From positions 62,001-126,000 of the forward strand of contig KN834842.1 of NCBI GenBank assembly GCA_000827265.1: DNA of 64,000 nucleotides, in the 5' to 3' direction. Positions 4,509 through 59,839 of this stretch are shown in pieces. The position numbers and the translations under genes are program-made. Under the pieces are notes generated by a model, which searched no databases, was not told the origin of the DNA, and worked only from the letters and a program-made list of their open reading frames with translations. Positions within the stretch are counted from its first letter, which is position 1. The number at the start of each line of letters is the position of its first letter. This DNA is from Collybiopsis luxurians FD-317 M1 (lineage: Eukaryota; Basidiomycota; Agaricomycetes; Agaricales; Omphalotaceae).

Positions 4509-5645
4509 AGCTTCATATATTTATACTCTATACTGATGTTTGTTCCTCTGTATCTTCTTCGATCTCCTGTGCCGTCAAAGAAATCTGGGAGCTGGTCAAA
4601 GCCTGTGCTTCGGCATGATACATACCACTGGCTGCTAAGGCTCTTTCTACAGCTCTTCTTGGAAGTTGTAATGACTTCTTTTCTTGCTTACCTTAATGAT
4701 GTCCAAAGCAATACTGACTCCGATTGGTCCCTTCCGACCAACTTCCGACTGCCATTATGATAAGCAAGTGAAAGATTGGCTCAATGTAGATTATAGATGT
4801 GGCACCAAGAAAATGCCCTAAATAATAAGGATTGCGAGGGGTACCGCTAACATGTCAAGGTCACTTGAATGATCTCGATGACAAGGGAGAGAAGAAAAGG
4901 TTTAGAACTCTGTGACTGTAAACATTGGATGATTTTCCGAAAACTTCGGTACGGTTCCAGTTTCTTGCTAGTTAGACCAAGGTTTCTCGAGGCCTTTCTC
5001 GCCTCTAAGGTTATGGGGCATTCCGTACCCCATCTGTCTCAGCCTAAGATGCGGTTCCTCGCTCAGTCAGTTTGTTAAGTTTTAAGCTGACATGTTCGAC
5101 ATGGTTTCAATGATAAATCAAGGAGAGATGGATGTGTCCGTATGTTGAATTCAAGCAGTAAAGGTTTACTTCCGCAACAATACAGCCTGGGTCTGACTCA
5201 GACTCGCCATCTTGTATACAACTTGCTACTATACGCTCCTGCCAAGCCAAAACTATCAACGGAGAAATACCCCGCTGAATTCCGATGAATTCAACGGTAG
5301 GGAATAAGTACATGCACATCTTTTGATTGATAGACAGAAGCCTATGCTTGCTGGTAAGTAAGTGAGGAGCCATACCGGCAGGCTGTCTTACATGACAGGA
5401 CATTCGGAGCTAATCAGTTTCCATGCGCTGATTTTGATCTAAGAAGAACAATTGCCTGGGGATGGACTTGGACTGTATGAGGATAGCATTTGTCCTGTGC
5501 TCTTCTGTCAATCCATATTGAGTGCAGCCAAGCCTAGCCATCATCAGGCTATAGCTTGACGAACTGTTCGGCTTGGATCAGATTCTTTTATGGTGGATCA
5601 TCTCACTTTGCTTCTCCTCTTTACTAAGCTACGCAATATCCAGTC
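4509..5645. other. Region without a supported gene
   Basis: Short open stretches occur (for example a helical-looking VKEIWELVKACASA in plus frame near 4575-4620), but none has a start, stop and splice signals that fit. About 1.1 kb probably contains decayed coding sequence plus the promoter of the gene starting at 5646. Confidence 0.35.
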
Positions 5646-8600
5646 ATGGCTCCAGGCATCCACACTGCTCAGCCGTTGTCCAGTCCATCCGGGCTCTTTG
5701 CGAACGCTCATAACTTCCAATTGAACGGAGGCTCATACGTTTACAAAGCCGACAGTGATTCATGTGTGTACCAATCTCTACTCATTATGAATTCTGCTCT
5801 AACATCGTTATTCGACGTTGCGAAATGTTGTGTTTGCGCCGGAGCAGCCGTACGTTCATCCCGTTCTTTTATTCCAGGTATCCGTTAATACTGCGAAGGT
5901 TGTTTATTGCCTCAAAGGGCATTTATCTACTGCTCGACCCGAATACTTTACTATTGGCTGCATAAAGCCAGGAAATCCGGGGGAAAGCACTCATGTCGTT
6001 CGGAGATTTACTCGGGAGGAGGACCGAGACCGCTTTGAATTTCTTCTTGAACGATTTGGGTGAGTGTTCTTTGTACTGAGCCCCACATTCCAGTGCCACT
6101 TTGATATCTGATCAGAATATAAGATGGGCCGCATTCACTATGAAACCACTCTGGAGGTTCACTCTGTATGGGGACCCATGCTTAGCTGTATCCTCTGCAG
6201 GTAATATTCAACCCCCGTCCCAGACTTCTCTGCGCTCCAAACTGAAACATATTGAAGCTCTATATACATGGAAGGAAGTGGTAGGACATTTTGATAAAAA
6301 AAATAGCCTATCGAATCAGTTGCAATTAGTAAGCTTGAATGTAGCACCTCCTCATTTCTTTTGCTCATGAGCCGAATCAGTTTCTCAAGGTTTCTGTATG
6401 ACCGTTGGCTTGATGATAGCTTCACATCTTGCTAATGATACTTCAGTCCTTTTTTACGACAACCTCAGGACTTTATCCCGGCAAATGGAAGTGGCTGGAC
6501 CTTTGGCAAGGGCGTGGCTTATATGAGAATTTAAAGTTATTTGATTGGAATGGCAATCTTGTAATGGATATGGAGTTACTTGAATCGCTTGAGCTTGTGT
6601 ATCAGGAAGGCCCAAAATCCTTGGTAACTTTAATGCTGCATGCCTCGATACTAAGCTCTGATTAGCATATAACAGAATTATGGAGATAAGAGCTTCTATT
6701 CAACAGCGTTTCAATGGATAATCCGCACAAGAAATGCAATAGGTGAGTGTAGGTTCAGTAAAGGAATCTGAACTAATATTTAGCTGAAACTTGTGAATAG
6801 GAGATGCCAAGCTGGATAAACTAGTAAATGGTCACATAGGCCATAATGAGGTGAGTCAGAAGTATCCAATGAGCCATGCATGATCTATGAGGAACTGAGA
6901 CTACGATCCTTGCACAGAATGTGAGTTTTGTGAACTAATCCCCCTTGTGCAATACTTACCCGATAAAATATCTAGTTAGTGAGTCTGGAACCTGGCCCCA
7001 TATGTGGATTATTGGTTGCCACTTACATTTCACCTATTATCTTTTGCATTGGTAGGATGTGAGTATTAGCGCCTCTGAACTTTAAATTCAATTCTACCCG
7101 GCGATTAACCCGATTTTCTCTCAATTTTATAAATTAGATAGTAAGTTTCTTAAATTTCATATTCAGTGCTAACGGAAGCCAACTTCTTACTTCTTGCTTT
7201 ATTTAGCTGGTGAGCCCCTGTCCAATTCTTTTCATCTTTGATTTTGATGTGAATGTTATGCTTTTTAAAAGTTGGTACGTATTTTTGACCTCTGGTTAGC
7301 CAAGTAGCATTCTGAAAATATATTTTTAGTCGGTGAGTCTACTGGTCTATGGCACCACGCCAGTATTGTTATGCAGATGCTCAATTCCTCAATCTTGCTG
7401 CGACTATCAGGCGGTAAGTCCTAGCTTTAAGAGTCCATACCACGCTTCTATAAAGACTGAGTTGGTGTTTACTCAATTTTTAGGATGTAAGCCATTTCTT
7501 TGCTCGAACTTGTATTTTTTTTGTTCTAACAGTATTATCTCTCTTTATTGTCCCGCCCCTGTTTGATTCTTCTCTTCATGAATTAGGAGGTAAGAGCTCT
7601 CATATTATTTGGAAATGTTGCTGTCTCAAGTACATAAATCTTACTCGATGCAGCTAGTGAGTTAGATTCGACCAATTTTGGTTTCCAGTACAAGCATTTT
7701 TACTGACAATTGTTTTCGCTCTCTCTTTTCTAAGTTTGTAAGTCCTCATACTCTGTTTTACGGTCCTCACTGCTCAGTAGCACATTTACTCTTTTTTTTT
7801 CAGTATGTGAGTTGAAATCCGTTCTTGTATCAGTCCGTTGTTTAAATGTAGTGGCTACATTGTACCTTTCATTTCACTATAGTTTGTAAGTCTTTTCATA
7901 ATCTTCAAATTCTAGCTGTGATATCTCCATTGGCTAAATGACATCGTCTATCCGCTCCAGGATGTAAGCCCTCCCTTTCCATTTACAATCTGTTGCGCCT
8001 ACTGACAATGAAGTTATGCAATGTGCATCCTCACTAGTTTGTAAGTCCTGTTGAACAACGAGAATATGATTGCTGCTTACTGCTACATGCAATCTCTATT
8101 TCAGTTTGTAAGTTCTACCGTGCGAGGATCAATCATTTCAGACACTAATTACTAATTTCTTTTTGTCCTTTTCCAGTTGGTAAGCCTGTTAATAAATAAT
8201 TTGCATTTTCCAGCATCTAACAATCATCTCGATACACTCTTCAATATCTAGGATGTGAGCAGTCTACTCCAGTTTCAATTCTTTAACGAGTAATAGTTCT
8301 GAGCTTTCATTTCTGTCCTTAGTTTGTGAGTTAACCTAATACCTCTATCTTAAGATCTTGCTTCCCGCTAACAGGCATTTATCCTTCTTAATCCAGAGTG
8401 TAAGTGATTTAGAACTGGTTCAGTATTTTAGACCGCAGCTGACTCGGCAACGTTGCTTGTATCAGGGTGTAAGAGATTTTCGTCTGACATTCTATTGCCT
8501 ACTGATTTACTTCACTTTATTCACAGTTTGTGAGTATTCTCTTTCTTGTTCTGTAATTAAACAGCTACACCTGACATTTCTGACATTTTGTGTTGCATGA

Positions 8601-9242
8601 AGTTTGTAAGTTCTCCGATTTGCATCAATATTTGTGGGTGTCCCTTACGATGAAATTACTTTTTCCTCTAGAATGTTGGTCTCTTCAAACTATGATCTTG
8701 GGTGTCAGCCCGACTCAAAGTCATACTTCTTCTACAGGATTCGAATATCCATGATGGAGATGATGAAGAAATTTTCGAGGAAGATGCACTTCCCAAACCT
8801 GAGTTGGAGCCATCGAATATCAATATTTTTGCCGTGTCTCAGGACGCGACCGGCGAATATGACGCTGGAGATACAGACTCAGATTACCCTGGATCCGCAC
8901 AATCTTTGGGTTTCTTTGGTAACCAAAGCTCAATCACGAATAGCAGTCCCCGGAGTGAGTAGTACTTATCCTTACTGTTCGTTGTTTGTGGTTTTTAATT
9001 ACGAGGCAGGCTTTTTGCGTCATGAAGACTGGGGTAACCGTAATGTTCCTGGATTCATCGTCTCTGATTACAAACTACCTTTAGGATTCGCCAGGTTGTC
9101 GGATGGTTTTGATGAAACCTACCATCGTTCCCACTCCAATGACGATTTGCTTCGTAGTGCATCACCAGCGCCCTCGACTGTGGTTTCTGGCTGTACAAGG
9201 CCGTACTTGCACTTTACTTCCCCACTAGCAGGAGTTAATTAA
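5646..9242 (+). CDS. Microexon-array gene: 456-codon protein of unknown function containing 25 consecutive 3-nt exons
   Basis: Model: 5646-5765, 5848-6059, 6124-6328, 6381-6395, 6447-6623, 6676-6742, 6801-6850, then 25 three-nucleotide exons (listed in the next entry), 8738-8954 and 9010-9242. The sum is 1371 nt in one frame with no internal stop. The N-terminus carries FANAHNFQLNGGSYVY, a motif I associate with N-termini of Agaricomycete NLR and kinase-like proteins. Exon 2 holds YFTIGCIKPGNPGES and a charged helix (FTREEDRDRFEFLLERFG). A middle domain reads WIIRTRNAIGDAKLDKLVNG. After the array come a strongly acidic segment (DGDDEEIFEED) and a Ser-rich C-terminus. There is no signal peptide, so the protein is probably intracellular. 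Exon 1/2 junction (donor GTGTAC) and the 15-nt exon 6381-6395 are the weaker calls. Function is unknown; acidic plus aromatic composition would fit an interaction or activation segment, but that is inference. Confidence 0.65.
6851..8737 (+). other. Array of 25 single-codon (3-nt) microexons separated by 26 short introns
   Basis: Each unit reads AG|NNN|GT. Microexon starts (each 3 nt): 6918, 6976, 7056, 7138, 7207, 7272, 7330, 7411, 7484, 7587, 7654, 7735, 7804, 7883, 7961, 8038, 8105, 8177, 8252, 8323, 8397, 8466, 8527, 8603, 8672. Codons 1-13 translate to NLDILLSADELFY, and codons 14-25 to FDFFLDFSGFFN. The 26 introns are 55-100 nt, most 60-80. Donors are GTGAGT, GTAAGT, GTAAGC, GTGAGC, GTAAGA or GTACGT, except the last (GTTGGT at 8675). 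Acceptors are mostly preceded by T-rich tracts, and CTNAY branch-like motifs are common. The upstream exon ends in phase 0 at 6850 and the downstream exon starts in phase 0 at 8738. The whole block is 1887 nt, a multiple of three. The introns do not look like copies of each other, so recent amplification of one element is not evident. Transcript evidence is lacking. Confidence 0.85.
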
Positions 9243-9706
9243 ATAGTAGTACATGCAAAATTCTTTTAAATGCATTGCACCTGAAGAAACAGCAAAATAA
9301 CAAATGATCTAGTTGTCCGAGCCGGCCTCCTCATCCAGAATAAAACCTTGTTACTTCTATTAACCTGACAAGCGCAAAGGTGTTGAACTTCTATTGTCGT
9401 CGTCGTCTCGTGAGGCGCCTGGATGCCATTCGTTCACTCGGTGTAATGCTCAGAAAAAATACCATTCATCATTAGACCAAATACTCTTTTACAAAAGAAA
9501 AAGTGATCAAGGACGGTATGGAACACAACACCAGAAGGATCAAAGCCAAAACGTAGCCGACCGAAAGAAGAAAACAAGAGACAAACGTAAAGTCCGGAAT
9601 GTTCAACCAGACTGATACATAAACGATCAAGGTACTCGATCACAGTAGCACCAACTTCTTAATAGGCAGAATCATTATCCAAGACCCTTTGTGGCATGAG
9701 GCGAGC
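9243..9706. other. Intergenic region between convergent genes
   Basis: It separates the 3' ends of the microexon-array gene (plus) and the hydrophobin gene (minus). It is A-rich, with no start/stop/splice combination that supports a gene. Confidence 0.5.
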
Positions 9707-42600: not shown

Positions 42601-45268
42601 ATGTCCCTCAGCCATACGCGTGTAACATGTTCTGCGGTGGAGAAAGTCGAAGCTTATGTTCACGGAGCAGAGCCCATTGTAGTTGATGGAAGCCGTCTCA
42701 ACCTTGCTGCAGTTGTAGCCGTCGCCCGGTAAGTTATTTATGCTGAGAAACGAATCATCGGCGTCTCCCTTAATTGCTTGTGGACTTTAGCTATAACTCA
42801 GTCCCCCAGCTGTCGGATGATGAACAAGTTAAGACAAGAGTTAATAGAGCGTGTTCCGCCGTCCAAGATCGCATTAGTAGTGGGGGCTCAATTTACGGAG
42901 TGACTACTGGTGTCGGAGCATCCTGTACGCAGTTTATGATTGTAATTGAGGGCGAGTGTATTGTTCGTTGACAAAAGAGGCTATGTAGCCTTCACTCGTA
43001 CAAACAGTGTACATGAACTACAGGACGCCCTAGCTACAGCGTACCTCAATGGGATTTTACCGACTCTTTCCTCAGCTCCCAGTTCAGCAAGTATGCGAAC
43101 AGTGCTTGATGAAGATTTTATGAAAGGAACCGTGATGGTGCGAGCTATAGTTTCCGAACGAGCTTCTCTGTGATGATTTCCTTAGGTTCGCTTGAACAGT
43201 TTAATTCGAGGCCATTCGGGGGTTCGCTGGACGGTACTTGAAGCTATGCACAAGCTTCTTGTTCACGATATTGTCCCACTTGCATCAAAGAATAATACTG
43301 TGAGGTATAATCTGGAAGTACTTCTCATCTATCCAGGCCTAACATCCAGCTTTTAGCGCTAGTGGTAAAGTCGTGTGTTTCTAGCCCTGTTCAGTTTATG
43401 AAATTTTAGAGTAGGAGACCTCGGGACTCTCGCATACATTGCCGGAACCTTGATTGGTCGCCCTGATCTTCGTGTTTGGTATGGTCAAAGGTAAATTCTG
43501 CTCTTAATCTGAAGCTCTACATAGTTAACTGCACATAGATCTGAGCGTTCGATCCGTCCTGCTGCGGAGGTCTTGAAAGAGATTCAATTAGAACCACTCA
43601 CTTACGGCCCTAAAGAGGCGCTTGCGATTCTTAAGTGCGATCTACTTTGATTCGAAATCCGTTTGCTCTTCTAAGCTTGTATTTTAGCGGGACCGCAGCA
43701 AGTGCCAGTGCCGCTGCGCTTGTACTTTACGATGCAAACATACTGCTCCTTGCAGCTCAAGGTCTGACTGTTATGACAATAGAAGCACTCAGGTCGATTC
43801 TCGAGCCTTTCCAACCGTTTCCTCATGTGGTTGCTCGTCCACATCCTGGTCAAATTGAAGTTGCTGCAAACATCGCGCGAATGACAGAAGGGTCCAAACT
43901 TGCTTTGAAGGAATACCCCGAAGGTGATCCTGAATTCTTACTTCGTCAAGACCGATATCACATCCGGTAAACTTCTGATTGAACTGAAGTCTCATCGATA
44001 TGCACTAACGCATACCAAAGATGTGCTCCCCAGTGGTTCGGACCATTTGCAGAAAATCTCCTACGTGCAACAGAGTCTGTAACCATTGAACTGAATTCGA
44101 CGACTGACAATCCCATTATTGACTCGGATGACCAATCTCCTCACAATATTTACCATGCCGGCAATTTTCAAGCTCTTACTCCTGCAGAAGCCATGGATGC
44201 TGTACGTCATGCAATCCTTGGCATTGGTTAGTGTATGAGTTCAATGTTAGCGCGTAACGGCTAACCCTCTTTTCTCCCTGTCAGCAAAGATTCTATATGC
44301 GCAGCAATCGGAGCTTTTAAATCCAATGTTGAATCGAGGTCTCCCTCCAGATTGTGCGGCAGGAGAACCCAGTCTTGACCTCGGTTTAAAAGCATCCGAT
44401 CTCTGTTGCTCCGCATACTTATCGGGTACGCTGCAACCTCAAACATTCTCCGATACACGAGTTGATCATCCCGTCCCCTTCTCCGCTAGAGATTGGATAT
44501 CTTAGTGGATCGTTCCTCCCTCATATCAACTCAACTGAACACCATACTCAGTCCATTAACTCTATGGCCCTCGCATCTGCTCGACATGCGAGAGATTGTG
44601 TGGACCTTCTCCGGCAGGTGAGTTCTTATTCTCGAGAATGACGGCCATAGATATGATGGTTCTGTATATTCCAACAGATAATGGCGACTTATTTGTTCAC
44701 CGTTTGCCAAGCGATTGATCTACGAGAGATGAACAACCGATATCTCAGCAAAGCAAAAGAAGTCTTCCAGACCAAGCTACCTGGGATACTGCTATGCTCC
44801 GAGGACACCATCATGCAAGATGCCGTGGCTTCCTTGTTCACTACGATTCGTGTTCAATTCGGTCGCACCGCTTCTATGGAGTCTTCGTCAAGGTTCAAGG
44901 CCATGTTATCCCCGCTAATCGCCGAACTTTATACTCGTACAACCCGAAACAGTCAAATCCAACTAGTAACCTCGACGACTCCTGTGCACTGGGTCGAAAT
45001 GCTCGAGGTCAAACTTCGTGAGCTGTTCCTCCAGCACCGGCTGGAGTACTTCAAGGAGACTGCGGGAGCGAGTGATTCACTCAGTCGAGCGGGCAGACTC
45101 ATTTATACCTTCATTCGAAAGGATCTGGAGATTCCAATGAAGAAGGGGATGAATCAAATGGATAAGCATGAAATTGGAACATATATCAGTATCATCTTCG
45201 AGGCTTTGAGCGATGGAAGGATGGACCGAGTGTTCACAGAAGCTGTAGGGTCCGCTGATAAGCTGTGA
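42601..45268 (+). CDS. Aromatic amino acid (phenylalanine/histidine-type) ammonia-lyase, copy 1
   Basis: Twelve exons: 42601-42728, 42791-42924, 42989-43137, 43186-43304, 43357-43364, 43415-43490, 43539-43634, 43688-43966, 44021-44226, 44285-44425, 44490-44617, 44678-45268, giving 684 codons plus stop, the usual PAL length. The catalytic loop tyrosine is in SIYGVTTGVGAS. The MIO-forming triad is S-A-S-G-D-L, with codons for A-S and part of G in the 8-nt exon 43357-43364. Other family marks: RGHSGVRWTVLEAM, ARPHPGQIEVA, LRQDRYHIRCAPQW, ELNSTTDNPIID and QSINSMALASARHARD. The enzyme deaminates an aromatic amino acid, probably Phe or Tyr, to the cinnamate-type acid in the cytosol. At the pair that sets Phe/Tyr choice in yeast PAL (His-Gln) this copy has Ala-Tyr in TAYLNGILP by my unaided alignment, so the substrate is open. 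Confidence 0.93.
43357..43364 (+). other. 8-nt microexon encoding the catalytic MIO triad (copy 1)
   Basis: Sequence CGCTAGTG between the acceptor TTTTAG and the donor GTAAAG. With AG from the previous exon and GA from the next it encodes Ser-Ala-Ser-Gly. Flanking introns are 52 and 50 nt. Skipping it would shift the frame and remove the active-site residues. Confidence 0.85.
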
Positions 45269-45284
45269 CTCACGATAACATAAA

Positions 45285-45367
45285 TCAGTATCATCTTCGA
45301 GGCTTTGGGCGATGGTAGGATGGACCGAGTGTTTACAGAAGCTGTAAAATCTGCTGATAAGCTATAA
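45285..45367 (+). repeat. Duplicated 3' tail of the ammonia-lyase gene
   Basis: About 83 nt closely matching 45186-45268, the last 27 codons of copy 1 (ISIIFEALGDGRMDRVFTEA ... ADKL then stop). It lies 16 nt after the real stop. It is untranslated unless the first stop is read through, in which case the frame also differs. Confidence 0.85.
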
Positions 45368-45874: not shown

Positions 45875-48541
45875 ATGTCCTTCAGCCATACACGTGTAAC
45901 ATGTTCTGCGGTGGAGAAAGTCGAAGCTTATGTTCACGGAGCAGAGCCCATTGTAGTTGATGGAAGCCGTCTCAATCTTGCTGCAGTTGTAGCTGTCGCC
46001 CGGTAAGTTATTTATGCTGAGAAATGAATCGTCGACGTCTCCCTTAATTGCTTGCGGACTTTAGCTATAACTCAGTCCCCGAGCTGTCGGATGATGAACA
46101 AGTTAGATCGACAGTTCATAGAGCATGTTCTGTCATCCAAGATCGCCTTAGTAGCGGACGCTCACTTTACGGAGTGACTACTGGTGTTGGAGCATCCGGT
46201 ACGCAGTTTGTGATTGTAATTGAAGGGCGAGTGTATCGTTCGTTGAGAAAAGAGTCTACGTAGCCTTCACTCGTACAAACAATGTGCATGAACTACAGAA
46301 CGCCCTGACTACAGCGAACCTCAATGGGATTTTACCGACGCTCTCCTCAGTCCCCAGTTCAGCAAGTATGCGAACGGTGCTCGACGAAGATTTTATGAAA
46401 GGAACCGTGATGGTGCGAGCTATAGTTTCCAAACGAGCTTCACTGTGACGAGTTCCGTAGGTTCGCTTGAACAGCTTAATTCGTGGCCATTCGGGGGTCC
46501 GCTGGACGGTACTTGAAGCTATGCACAAGCTTCTTGTCCACGATGTTGTCCCACTTGCATCAAAGAATAATACTGTAAGGTATAATTTGGAACTTGTCTA
46601 CTTATCTAGGTCTAACGTGCAGCTCTTAGCGCTAGTGGTAAGGTCGTGTGTTTCCAAACCTGTTTCGCTTATGAAACTGTAGAGTAGGAGACCTTGGAAC
46701 TCTCGCATACATTGCAGGTACCCTGACTGGTCGCCCTGACCTTCGTGTTTGGTATGGTCAAAGGTAAATCCTGCTTTTATTCTGAAGCTTTGCATATTCA
46801 CTGTACACAGATCTGAGCGTTCGATCCGTCCTGCTGCAGAGGTTTTGAAAGATATTCAATTGGAACCACTTACTTACGGCCCTAAAGAGGCGCTTGCGAT
46901 TCTCAAGTGCGATTTACTTCAATTTGAAACCAGTTTGCTCTTTTAAGCTTCTCATCTTTCAGTGGGACTGCAGCAAGCGCTAGTGCCGCTGCCCTTGTAC
47001 TTTACGACGCAAACATACTACTTCTTGCAGCTCAAGGTTTGACTGTTATGACAATAGAAGCGCTCAGGTCGATTCTCGAGCCTTTCCAACCGTTTCCCCA
47101 TGTGGTTGCTCGTCCACATCCCGGTCAAATTGAGATTGCTGAAAACATTACGCGCATGGCAGAGGGGTCCAAATTTGCTTTGAAGGAATACCCCGAAGGT
47201 GATCCTGAATTCTTACTTCGTCAAGACCGATATCACATCCGGTAAACTTCTGATTTAACCAGTCCCGTCGATATACACTAACGGATACCAAAGATGTGCT
47301 CCCCAGTGGTTCGGACCATTTGCAGAAAATCTCCTACGTGCAACAGAGTCTGTAACCATTGAGCTGAATTCGACGACTGACAATCCCATCATTGACTCGG
47401 ATGGCCAAGTTCCTCACAATATCTACCATGCCGGCAATTTTCAAGCTCTTACTCCTGCGGAAGCCATGGATACTGTACGTCATGCAATACTTGGTATTGG
47501 TAGGTGTATGAGCTCAATGTTAACGCATAATGGCTAACCCTCCTTTCTCCCTATCAGCAAAGATTCTATATGCGCAGCATTCAGAGCTCTTGAATCCAAT
47601 GTTGAATCGAGGTCTCCCTCCGGATTGTGCAGCAGGAGAACCCAATCTTGACTACGGTCTCAAAGCATCCGATCTCTGTTGCTCCGCATACTTATCGGGT
47701 ACGCTGCAACCTCAAACATTCTCCCATATTCGAGCTGACGATCCAGTCCCCTCCTCCGCTAGAGATTGGATATCTTAGTGGATCGTTCCTCCCTCATATC
47801 AACTCAACTGAACACCACAATCAATCCATTAACTCTATGGCCCTCGCATCTGCTCGACATGCGAGAGATTGTGTGGATCTTCTTCGGCAGGTAAGTTCTT
47901 ATTCTCGAGAATGACGGCCATAGATATGATGGTTCTGTATATTCCAACAGATAATGGCGACTTATTTGTTCACCGTTTGCCAAGCGATTGATCTACGAGA
48001 AATGAACAATCGATATCTCAGCAAAGCAAAGGAACTCTTCCAGACCGAGCTACCTGGGATACTGCTATGCTCCGAGGACACCATCATGCAAGATGCCGTG
48101 GCTTCCTTGTTCACTACAATTCGTGTTCAATTCGGTCTCACCGCTTCTATGGAGTCTTCTTCGAGGTTCAAGGCCATGTTATCCCCGCTGATCACCGAGA
48201 TTTATACTCGTACAGCCCGAAATAGTCAAATCCAACTAGTAACCTCGACGACTCCTGTGCACTGGGCCGAAATGCTCGAAGTCAAACTTCGCGAACTGTT
48301 CCTCCAGCACCGATTGGAGTACTTTAAGGAGACTGCGGGAGCCACTGATTCACTCAGTCGAGCGGGCCGGCTCATTTACATCTTTATTCGAAAGGATCTG
48401 GAGATTCCGATGAAGAAGGGGATGAATCAAATGGATAAGCATGAAATTGGAACATATATCAGTATCATCTTCGAGGCTTTGGGCGATGGTAGGATGGACC
48501 GAGTGTTCACAGAAGCTGTAGAGTCCGCTGATAAGCTGTGA
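45875..48541 (+). CDS. Aromatic amino acid (phenylalanine/histidine-type) ammonia-lyase, copy 2
   Basis: Twelve exons: 45875-46002, 46065-46198, 46264-46412, 46461-46579, 46630-46637, 46688-46763, 46811-46906, 46963-47241, 47294-47499, 47558-47698, 47763-47890, 47951-48541, giving 684 codons plus stop. Every exon has the same length as copy 1. Catalytic features are the same: YGVTTGVGASAFTRT, SASGDLGTLAYIAG, LRQDRYHIRCAPQW, ELNSTTDNPIID. The 8-nt microexon with the MIO codons is kept exactly at 46630-46637. At the substrate-selectivity pair it reads Ala-Asn (TANLNGILP) where copy 1 has Ala-Tyr, one of few differences near the active site. Both copies look functional. Confidence 0.93.
46630..46637 (+). 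other. 8-nt microexon encoding the catalytic MIO triad (copy 2)
   Basis: CGCTAGTG between acceptor CTCTTAG and donor GTAAGG, identical to copy 1 although the flanking introns have diverged. Confidence 0.85.
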
Positions 48542-55547: not shown

Positions 55548-56532
55548 CTAGCGACATTTATCCTGGAACAGTGTGTATGAGGGAGAGGTCAACCCTTGCA
55601 CGCTAACTTTCAGGAAACTTTCTTCGTCCTCCAATCGTTTCAGAACGTCAGGGTTGGCTTTCAATTCGTCAACGTCCCAATGTGCCCAAACAAAGCGACC
55701 ATGTAACCAACTCGCTTCCGGAGACGCCGCCCAAACCGAGAAATCTGCAGGCAAGTTCACTACGGAGAGAGAACTTTATTATAGCATCAGATATCGATCG
55801 ACGCGAAAGCTTACTTTCGTCCCATTTGAAAGCGTCTGGATCATAGGTTTTGGAAACACCCTCCGAGTATAGTATTCCTGGATGGAAGGATATAATCTGA
55901 ACATCTTCGACGGAGCGTTCATTGGCGATCCTTCCAATTAATGCAGCAAATGCTGCTTTGGAAGATGCATATGGGTTATAAAAGGGGGTATCGTCCATAT
56001 GAATGCCGGACGTCGAGATATTAATGAGATTGAGTTGCTGCCTTGCATGTCGGAGAGGTTGCTGCACGAACTTCGCCGACATGTAAAAATTGCCCCCCAC
56101 GTTGACTCCGAACGCCGTCATGAGCTCCTCCTTGTTCATGCTCAAGGTATCAGTGCCACTCGGGGTAATTTGAGCGGCGTTAAGTACTAAGACGTGGACG
56201 ACTATTTTTTGGGATTGCAGGAAGTCCCAGAGAGCTGTGACCGAAGCGTCGTCCCCGATATCTGTTTGTCGAGCCATGAATTCGGTCCCTACTTTGAACT
56301 CTCCTCGTAGCTTCATCACAGCTTCATCCAAGAATCCACCTCTACGACCCACAATGATGATCCTGGAAGCAGACGCTTTGGCGAAGGATCGAGCGATGTT
56401 GAATCCTAGTCCACCTCCTCCGCCCGTGATGAGAACGGTTTTACCGGCTTGGCGGAGGGACGGCTTGGTGGGCGATATGGCGGGGTATGTAGCACGATGA
56501 TGACTCTTGATTAAACTGAGCGCGGAAGCCAT
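55548..56532 (-). CDS. Short-chain dehydrogenase/reductase (SDR), copy 1
   Basis: Two exons on the minus strand: 56532-55815 and 55759-55548, giving 309 codons plus stop. The Rossmann motif is TVLITGGGGGLGFNIA, with VGRRGG after strand 2 (suggesting NADP(H) preference), LNAAQ for the NAG motif, catalytic Ser in INISTSGI, and Tyr/Lys in YASSKAAF. The tail contains LPADFSVWAASPEASWLHG. SDRs use NAD(P)H to reduce or oxidise carbonyl or alcohol groups, usually in the cytosol; the substrate is unknown. The intron, phase 1 in both paralogues, falls before the conserved tail. The gene overlaps the end of the GH43 relic's neighbourhood but not its sequence. Confidence 0.93.
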
Positions 56533-58041: not shown

Positions 58042-59019
58042 TTACTTATTCAAGTACGGTTCCAGCGAAGCACTTTTCAACCCCTCGACCCCGACCTTCA
58101 GGAATCCACTCTCCTTTTCTATCTGCTTCAAGAAGTCTGCTTTAAGTTCATCCACATCCCAACTTGCCCAAACAAAACGACCGTGTAACCATGACGCCTC
58201 AGGAGATGCCGCCCAAACAGAAAAATCTGCAGGTAATGCCACTGTTTCAACAAGTTCAACCTAACTATACGAGTTCGGAAGCTGCAGAAAATGCATGTAC
58301 GTACTTTCTTCCCATTTGAAAACACTTTTATCGAACAACTTGGCTGCACCCTCCGAGTATAGAATCCCCGGATGGAATGAGATAATTTGGACGTCATCTA
58401 CTGGATGCTCGTCGGCCACCCTCCCAATCAATGCAGTGAATGCCGCCTTTGACGTGGCGTATGAATTCTGTGAAAGTGCCGGATTCTGATGAATGCCACC
58501 CGTGCTGACATTCAAGAGGTAAAGTTGTTGCCCGGTCGGACGAAGAGGTTGCTGAACGAATTTCGCTGACATCAAAAAGTTGCCGCCAAGGTTGACATTG
58601 AACATATCCATGAGTTCCTGTTTATTCATAGCTAGCGTATCGGGCACCAGCGGACTGAGGGCTGCAGCATTCAGCACCAAGACGTGAACAAAGATGTTCC
58701 AAGAATGGAGAAACTCCCAAAGAGTCGCCACGGAAGAATCGTCCCCAATATCTCCTTGGTGAGAAATGAATTCTGTCCCTACCTTAAATTCCTCTCGGAG
58801 CTTCGTTACCGCGTCGTCCAAGAGTTCACTTCTTCGACCCACGATGATGATTCTGGAAGCTGAAGCTTTGGCGAACGATCGGGCGATCTCGAAGCCTAGT
58901 CCGACACCTCCACCAGTGATGAGAACGGTTTTATCGGCTTGGCTGAGGGACTGTTTGGTGGGTGAAATGGAAGGGTATGTATCGCGATGATAGGTAGTCG
59001 TCAAACTGGGGAAAGACAT
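58042..59019 (-). CDS. Short-chain dehydrogenase/reductase (SDR), copy 2
   Basis: Two exons on the minus strand: 59019-58305 and 58241-58042, giving 304 codons plus stop. Motifs: TVLITGGGVGLGFEIA, VGRRSE, LNAAAL, catalytic Ser in LNVSTGGI, and Tyr/Lys in SYATSKAAF. The tail reads LPADFSVWAASPEASWLHG as in copy 1. It is a diverged paralogue in the same orientation, from tandem duplication. The start ATG at 59019 aligns with copy 1; an earlier in-frame ATG is less likely. Confidence 0.93.
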
Positions 59020-59839
59020 GATGAAGATGGTGAAGAATTCTGCCTTCTGCCTTTTCATCCGTTTTATATTTCCTTAGATCAAAGGCACTTAACTGGAAGC
59101 GGTTAGCCCCCTTGCGTACCTGGCCAAGGTACCAATCGTGCAGAAAAAGGCATCTTGCAATTAATCTCTTCAAAATCTTTGGGCGCATTTTTCCTCGTGA
59201 AAACTATCAATATAAAAGCATCCTTTATCAGGGTCAACTTGTTTGCACAATTCATCTCACCTGAAGCCGTCTTGGTCCCTTGACTTCGGCTCTCTCTACC
59301 CTGTTTCCGTCTCTTTTGTGTTCTTTGCCGCCTCTAGATCTCTTTCGTATGTCGGCAAGCTCTTCTTGATAGAGGCTCGCCGTCACTTTTTGACCGATCG
59401 CCTGTGCGGGGTACGACCATGTGAAACAAGCGAGATGATGATGGTGGCTCAAGAAAGCAACAAGAAAGGTGATGTAATACTAATAGCAGATACATTTGCC
59501 CTTGCTAGTTGCTCCTAAACCAGTAATAAACCAGAATTTACTCTCCATTTACAACACCGGAGACTTTAGGGGAAAAAGGCGAAACTCGTCCATGGCCAGA
59601 ACTTGGATACAGCAACGCCCACAGGGTCCCGAACAACCGGAAACACCGGACTCCGGATCAGTGGCTTACTCAAAACAGCAAACGACCTCCGTTTGAGAGC
59701 GTGACCTGAGTGTTAAAAAGGTTTTTCGCCACCCCTCCCTTTTGTAACCTCTATCTCACCTGCAAGGTATAATTTGCTTCACTGTATCCCCGTTTTCTGC
59801 TTCCAGGACTTTTCCGAAGATTCGATCTCTCGTTTTTCA
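59020..59839. other. Spacer upstream of SDR copy 2 and of the zinc-finger gene
   Basis: Contains a plus-strand TATAAAAG at 59211-59218 without a clear coding gene just after it. It may start the zinc-finger transcript with a long leader or an unannotated RNA. A minus-strand AATATAAAAC at 59061-59070 could serve SDR copy 2. Confidence 0.4.

Follow-up and report, generated by a model that had tools for sequence, protein, structure and literature searches.

What is a run of 25 three-base units, each held between an acceptor AG and a donor GT, doing inside a gene of the basidiomycete Collybiopsis luxurians FD-317 M1? The units (AG-NNN-GT, in succession) occupy 6851-8737 of the plus strand of the window, by which we mean the whole 64,000-nucleotide stretch analysed (contig KN834842.1, positions 62,001 to 126,000), in what we call the window gene. 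We consider it probable that the region is an array of predicted single-codon exons that would give rise to a 25-residue protein segment; arrays of the same kind are present in 24 of the 26 genes found of its family. A first-pass annotation of this DNA had proposed that a single gene holds 25 one-codon exons in succession, all in phase 0; at the level of sequence the proposal is supported by the arrays at those 24 loci and by their depletion in stop codons, and it is further backed by synonymous changes that keep residues and by 1-nt exons offset by 5-nt or 2-nt ones. Beyond that annotation, the array proved to be a family trait, some arrays are longer (67 units), and introns and codons evolve independently.

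The count of units and their spacing of 58-103 nt were as annotated, with 26 introns of 55-100 nt if the two outer ones are included. The donor fits GTRNG at 24 of the 25 units, and unit 25 is followed by the weaker donor GTTGGT. The codons read NLDILLSADELFYFDFFLDFSGFFN, with zero stops. The unbroken chain is thus one of 24 AG-NNN-GTRNG units; elsewhere in the window the longest chain is 1 on the plus strand (29 sites) and 2 on the minus strand (26 sites), and in 2000 sequences simulated by a first-order Markov model with the array's own composition it is 3, so the annotation was right that the run exceeds chance. Of 24 introns tested for branch sites, CTRAY occurs close to the 3′ end in 10, and looser forms occur in the remaining 14. 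The exon before the array (6801-6850) has a single open frame and ends on a codon boundary, and the exon after it (8738-8954) is open in phase 0. The array and its exons are as follows.

6851..8737, +: array of 26 introns of 55-100 nt and 25 single-codon exons, from the splice-signal chain
6918..6920, +: single-codon exon 1, AAT (N)
6976..6978, +: single-codon exon 2, TTA (L)
7056..7058, +: single-codon exon 3, GAT (D)
7138..7140, +: single-codon exon 4, ATA (I)
7207..7209, +: single-codon exon 5, CTG (L)
7272..7274, +: single-codon exon 6, TTG (L)
7330..7332, +: single-codon exon 7, TCG (S)
7411..7413, +: single-codon exon 8, GCG (A)
7484..7486, +: single-codon exon 9, GAT (D)
7587..7589, +: single-codon exon 10, GAG (E)
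7654..7656, +: single-codon exon 11, CTA (L)
7735..7737, +: single-codon exon 12, TTT (F)
7804..7806, +: single-codon exon 13, TAT (Y)
7883..7885, +: single-codon exon 14, TTT (F)
7961..7963, +: single-codon exon 15, GAT (D)
8038..8040, +: single-codon exon 16, TTT (F)
8105..8107, +: single-codon exon 17, TTT (F)
8177..8179, +: single-codon exon 18, TTG (L)
8252..8254, +: single-codon exon 19, GAT (D)
8323..8325, +: single-codon exon 20, TTT (F)
8397..8399, +: single-codon exon 21, AGT (S)
8466..8468, +: single-codon exon 22, GGT (G)
8527..8529, +: single-codon exon 23, TTT (F)
8603..8605, +: single-codon exon 24, TTT (F)
8672..8674, +: single-codon exon 25, AAT (N), then the weak donor GTTGGT

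Family searches covered the 64.3-Mb assembly (200 contigs). Each of three queries containing exon E5, the family marker, and one query with the E2 exon of a paralog led to 26 family loci. Arrays, defined as at least three chained units, were found in 24 of the 26, with the first unit about 360-510 nt 3′ of the start of the marker exon. The longest, in the member C69, has 67 chained units and two gaps in which no unit was called. Array lengths in 17 of the 24 loci are lower bounds, since about 1.5 kb or less 3′ of the marker was covered (3 kb in C61a), and a run of N breaks or ends the array in six loci (C23a, C23b, C23d, C61a, C61c and C100). A few units of the arrays L045 and L048 have a GC donor (GCAAGT) instead of GT. 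The ordinary exons of the window gene, with the evidence for each, are listed here.

5646..5765, +: predicted first coding exon (MAPGIHTAQPLSSPSGLFANAHNFQLNGGSYVYKADSDSC); from the sequence, with start codon and donor predicted; weak similarity to 4 other members
5878..6059, +: exon E2, kept across the family; tblastn match in 25/25 other members; genome search with a paralog E2 gave the same 26 loci
6124..6200, +: exon E3, kept across the family; tblastn match in 25/25 other members, 46-68% identity
6469..6623, +: exon E5 (YPGxW), with the marker domain of the family (LYPGKWKWLDLWQGRG...); also present at 25 further loci of the genome; alignment A1 of 17 members
6676..6742, +: predicted exon E6 (NYGDKSFYSTAFQWIIRTRNAI); open frame between splice sites
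6801..6850, +: predicted exon E7, the last ordinary exon 5′ of the array, ending in phase 0; one open frame
8738..8954, +: acidic exon after the array (DSNIHDGDDEEIFEED...), starting in phase 0; open frame
9010..9242, +: predicted last coding exon, ending with TAA; open frame

Further small exons may lie between E3 and 6469 in the window gene. Outside the assembly, its 389-aa spliced model (from which possible exons in 6201-6468 were omitted) gave 2373 candidate homologs, none at E <= 0.001, and a query with 50 aa of the marker domain matched a single metagenome protein, P0002, at 78% identity, encoded on a 653-nt contig. Searches of Pfam, NCBIfam and PDB gave no membership for the family, and no library searched names it. 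An EF-hand identity of the marker domain was considered and rejected (EF-hand_1 matched 3 of 17 members, with a best E of 0.0068, and did not match the window gene).

The size of the exons can be asked without presuming it. Among the 26 members, the nearest AG lies exactly 3 nt upstream of 305 of the 402 strong donors 3′ of the marker, versus 11 of 269 for the complementary strand of these regions. A Viterbi parse with a nearly flat prior on exon length, applied to 19 of the 26 members, made 330 of 381 exons 3 nt long. When lengths of 3 and 6 were allowed, 22 members yielded 442 units, 431 of 3 nt and 11 of 6 nt, a set that includes a doubtful loose third chain in C21e and that codes for 453 codons with one stop.

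Three lines of evidence suggest that these units are translated. First, stops are depleted: 2 occur in 377 codons of 23 non-redundant members, versus 28.5 ± 4.2 expected when bases were shuffled within codon columns (the minimum in 5000 shuffles was 14), and one of the two, in C23e, vanishes once 6-nt units are allowed. At AG-NNN-GTRNG sites of the window outside the array, 3 of 54 are stops. The absence of stops to which the first-pass annotation pointed is true for the window gene and weak when taken by itself, as (61/64)^25 comes to about 0.3; it is family-wide that the argument becomes strong. Second, residues are kept at the array end. The arrays of C100 and C69 both end by coding PYLDLF, with 6/6 residues and 13/18 bases equal in a comparison picked after the strings had been seen; three codons differ (CCT/CCA, TTG/CTT and CTG/TTA), all synonymously, and the introns there have an identity of 0.55-0.60 versus 0.53-0.58 when shuffled. 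C61a has PYFDFF in the same place, sharing 4/6 residues with C100 and 4/6 with C69. When all array pairs were compared, 2 of 23,718 six-codon windows matched at five or more positions, and by the printed strings these two are overlapping windows of the C100-C69 end. Third, exons of other sizes compensate: three close paralogs have a 1-nt exon, and the next exon makes up for it, with 5 nt in C21a and C21b and 2 nt in C21c, which preserves the reading frame in each.

Third-base C is nearly absent from family units (4/415, versus 12/54 at sites outside the array). The ratio of observed to expected CpG is 0.55 in the array of the window gene, 0.18-0.67 in five whole paralog loci and 0.89 in the window, and the avoidance of C could come from CpG loss or from donor preference.

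Codons and introns have separate histories. The introns of C61a are mostly 74-nt near-copies, and the codons between them read CTT TCT GAT TTG GGG CGG TTT ... ATG TTG GAT TAT CGG ACA TTG TCT GAG CCG. For 32 within-array intron pairs with an identity of 95% or more, the preceding codons agree in 12% of cases and the following codons in 6%, versus 5% for random codons. In 82 pairs at least 93% identical (52 in C61a, 26 in C100 and 4 in C7), mean divergence is 0.049 for the introns and 0.630 for the codons, and all codon pairs in C61a and C100 give 0.65-0.69. For C61a and C100 we rejected simple duplication, in which codon and intron would be copied as one and afterwards diverge in the ratio of about 2 seen for C21a/C21b: with introns 5% diverged, the codons should then be about 10% diverged, and 63% was observed. 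Between close paralogs the codons again differ more: 13 of 87 codon sites (14.9%) versus 134 of 1905 intron sites (7.0%) for C21a-C21b, and 12 of 48 (25%) versus 112 of 1015 (11%) for C21a-C21c, with p = 0.011 and p = 0.009 left uncorrected for the number of tests and C21c compared over the first part of its array only. Over 27 codons, with an exon whose lengths are unequal set aside, C21a and C21b differ in eight, and seven of these differences alter the residue. In the marker exon, 9 of 150 bases differ for C21a-C21b, 17 for C21a-C21c and 15 for C21b-C21c.

Other arrays show other stages. A six-unit block is duplicated in C21f (SFSEIK/SFSEIR), its introns being 0.63-0.82 alike versus a mean of 0.70. 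Introns are mutually unrelated in the window gene (identity 0.541 versus 0.535 shuffled, 24 introns) and in C12a (0.540 versus 0.534). Exons 13-17 of the window gene spell YFDFF (TAT TTT GAT TTT TTT); the identical five codons stand near the array end of C61a, and the introns around these common codons have an identity at the shuffled level. The arrays thus range from freshly homogenised to long-decayed introns, and the one-codon layout outlasts the intron sequences. The independence of codons and introns, like the arrays themselves, the depletion of stops, the kept end residues and the frame compensation, is established from the sequence.

Several points weigh against reading the units as translated, diversifying codons, besides the limits already attached to the array-end and paralog comparisons. 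The first-pass annotation had both flanking exons in frame; this held for E7, with its one open frame and codon-boundary end, and the exon at 8738-8954 (E8) is open in two frames, phase 0 being one of them. The length-free Viterbi parse gave the window gene just 14 exons of 3 nt, a low yield because the weights were trained mostly on paralogs and its donors score lower; the chain method recovers all 25 units. C69 has one stop unit (TAG) and two 1-nt oddities. A duplicated block within its array has a sense codon at the position of the TAG, and this copy may be dead or damaged, or may skip its stop and 1-nt units. For C21b-C21c the excess of codon divergence (18.8% versus 9.9% for introns) is not significant (p = 0.083), and in C21e equal neighbouring codons number 10 versus 2.2 shuffled, so codon diversification is not uniform across arrays. 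Finally, two members, C12b and C12c, are without an array. They are sisters in the 26-member tree, which is rooted at the midpoint only, with support 96/94; the window gene diverges most of all members, and its long branch is of unsure placement, yet it has an array, which makes it likely that presence is old and that absence reflects a loss. Kinase-like open-frame pieces were seen by eye about 800-1300 nt 3′ of the marker exon of C12b (L019).

The alternative that survives best, which we still hold to be rather unlikely, is combinatorial splicing, in which varying subsets of the units would give many in-frame isoforms as in micro-exon genes. With unit lengths of 3 nt (431/442) and 6 nt (11), skipping any unit would keep the frame, and units with weak or GC donors occur; many donors and acceptors, however, look strong and alike, which favours constant inclusion. 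Schistosome micro-exon genes (MEGs) have exons of 6-36 nt, and secreted products are the rule. The array predicted from the sequence of the window gene is like them in having many short symmetric exons in mid-gene between ordinary ones, such that skipping would preserve the frame and products would be variable; it is unlike them in that most exons of the family are 3 nt (330/381) and introns can be near-identical copies. The aphid bicycle genes, according to the sections of PMC9168663 available to us, evolve rapidly as a family and have numerous small internal exons that share one phase, and megacycle, a bicycle-related gene, has more than 100 microexons. In bicycle genes nearly every internal exon begins in phase 2 (PMC9168663), whereas the array exons of the window gene are phase 0, with departures elsewhere in the family such as the paired 1-nt and 5-nt exons of C21a and C21b, and a phase-2 rule is not what is found here; the same sections describe no arrays of 3-nt exons. 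Isolated exons of 1-3 nt are spliced in and matter in Arabidopsis APC11 (PMC4674806), Drosophila homothorax (PMC7392893) and plant microexons (PMC8831610); in the accessible parts of these papers 1-nt or 3-nt exons are single or few per gene, whereas dozens stand in succession here. According to PMC8831610, reads spanning a 1-nt exon were not placed by an aligner unless the exon had been supplied as annotation. Two 3-nt exons are described for the lipS genes of Dactylellina haptotyla in the accessible part of PMC5639578. Literature searches, with preprints and most subscription papers outside their coverage, showed no array of single-codon exons.

We give a lower probability to introner-like insertion, by which a one-piece exon would have been cut codon by codon by a mobile intron, leaving old codons between new introns. 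Introners spread over unrelated genes. The introns of C61a and C100, about 95% identical between near-random codons, are as such insertion would have them, and near-identical introns (in C61a, C100 and C7, not in the window gene) recall the fungal introner-like elements, near-identical spliceosomal introns multiplied within a genome in the portion of PMC4457414 that we could consult. The copies found here sit on family contigs, C153 aside, at a fixed 3-nt spacing. Insertion would leave exons of 6, 9 and 12 nt and other phases, whereas 3 nt dominates; the block of C21f was duplicated as units together; and introns that are mutually unrelated in the window gene and C12a mean that the arrays are not all young. 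One 77-nt unit has at least 97 matches, all on family-locus contigs except those on C153, where no member was found, and with these matches on family contigs plus C153 we consider a burst of introners across the genome less likely. Three of the places are without a detected marker exon: the near-identical unit also occurs at C61:86786-87441 (minus strand), C61:33-151 and C153:5516-5749, runs which are candidates for orphan arrays or for members split by gaps.

It is improbable, we think, that the region is one long intron, with 6850 joined straight to 8738 and the units being relics of a tandem intron array removed whole or recursively. The outer exons 6801-6850 and 8738-8954 do join in frame without the array, skipping any number of 3-nt units preserves the frame, and the repeat unit in several arrays is an intron; but the stop depletion, the synonymous changes and the 1+5 and 1+2 nt compensation would be unexplained if the units were untranslated, and the splice signals of the window gene persist despite its mutually unrelated introns. 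Stwintrons are alike in that linked introns are removed stepwise, and unlike in that, by the sections of PMC5639578 and PMC8469720 available to us, one intron interrupts a splicing element of another and no exon remains. The arrays here have three bases between acceptor and donor and are stop-depleted, which is not the stwintron arrangement. A DNA- or RNA-level repeat with another role (a satellite, structured RNA or regulatory array of whose motif AG-NNN-GT is part) is very improbable, the near-identical tandem units of some members notwithstanding, given that an Rfam scan of 5500-9400 gave no match at gathering scores, that the introns of the window gene are no more alike than shuffled ones, and that the signals are at the codon level.

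Elsewhere in the window, open frames at 193-1947 have weak TANC1-type winged-helix and beta-propeller matches below the Pfam cut-off, and are perhaps part of a NACHT-WD40 type gene adjoining the array gene. Near-identical 195-aa open frames lie about 3.3 kb apart at 44681-45268 and 47954-48541; the first has no Pfam match, and a 99-nt tandem repeat (1.9 copies, 45178-45363) overlaps its end. Two similar short-chain dehydrogenase genes (Pfam adh_short) lie near each other on the minus strand at 55669-56532 and 58261-59058.

Returning to the array of single-codon exons as the preferred reading, we infer how such arrays would be spliced, translated, recombined and used. The introns would be removed singly from the 5′ side by intron definition, each step adding one codon, and each newly joined codon would then supply the exonic flank for the donor that follows; this order is likely because the sites flanking a 3-nt exon are too close for simultaneous binding. 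The intron copies would act as spacers and as homology for unequal exchange and conversion, and exchange within introns would add, remove, copy or shuffle single residues or blocks with the frame intact, while selection would keep stops out, preserve the end motif and diversify the array middle. L, D, F, W, S and E abound in the array segment, which is followed by an acidic exon in the window gene; an acidic exon after the array was read by eye in C21a too. For the product we predict a hypervariable segment, rich in aromatic and acidic residues, that would serve an intracellular fungal protein in binding or recognition, and such a role fits the array composition and the acidic exon. Nematode HYP effectors have a central hypervariable domain with motifs that vary in number and order, as far as the available part of PMC11228951 goes; the varying motifs there are coding, whereas here the repeated unit is the intron and it is the codon between copies that would code.

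We advance tentatively, rating it a little below even, the idea of a new architecture: a hypervariable segment with one codon per exon, in which the spliced-out repeat is the recombination handle and single residues could be freely inserted, deleted, copied and swapped, with combinatorial splicing possible on top. If the units are spliced in, the spliceosome assembles dozens of consecutive one-codon exons, beyond the isolated exons of 1-3 nt, with no help from exon length, and stepwise 3-nt splicing becomes testable. The arrays would likewise make it testable how introns homogenise while codons diversify. Gene finders with a minimum exon length are expected to miss such segments, and similar arrays may hide in other genomes. 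If true, the architecture would be a fungal diversification system with a reach comparable to that of immune-type variable regions.

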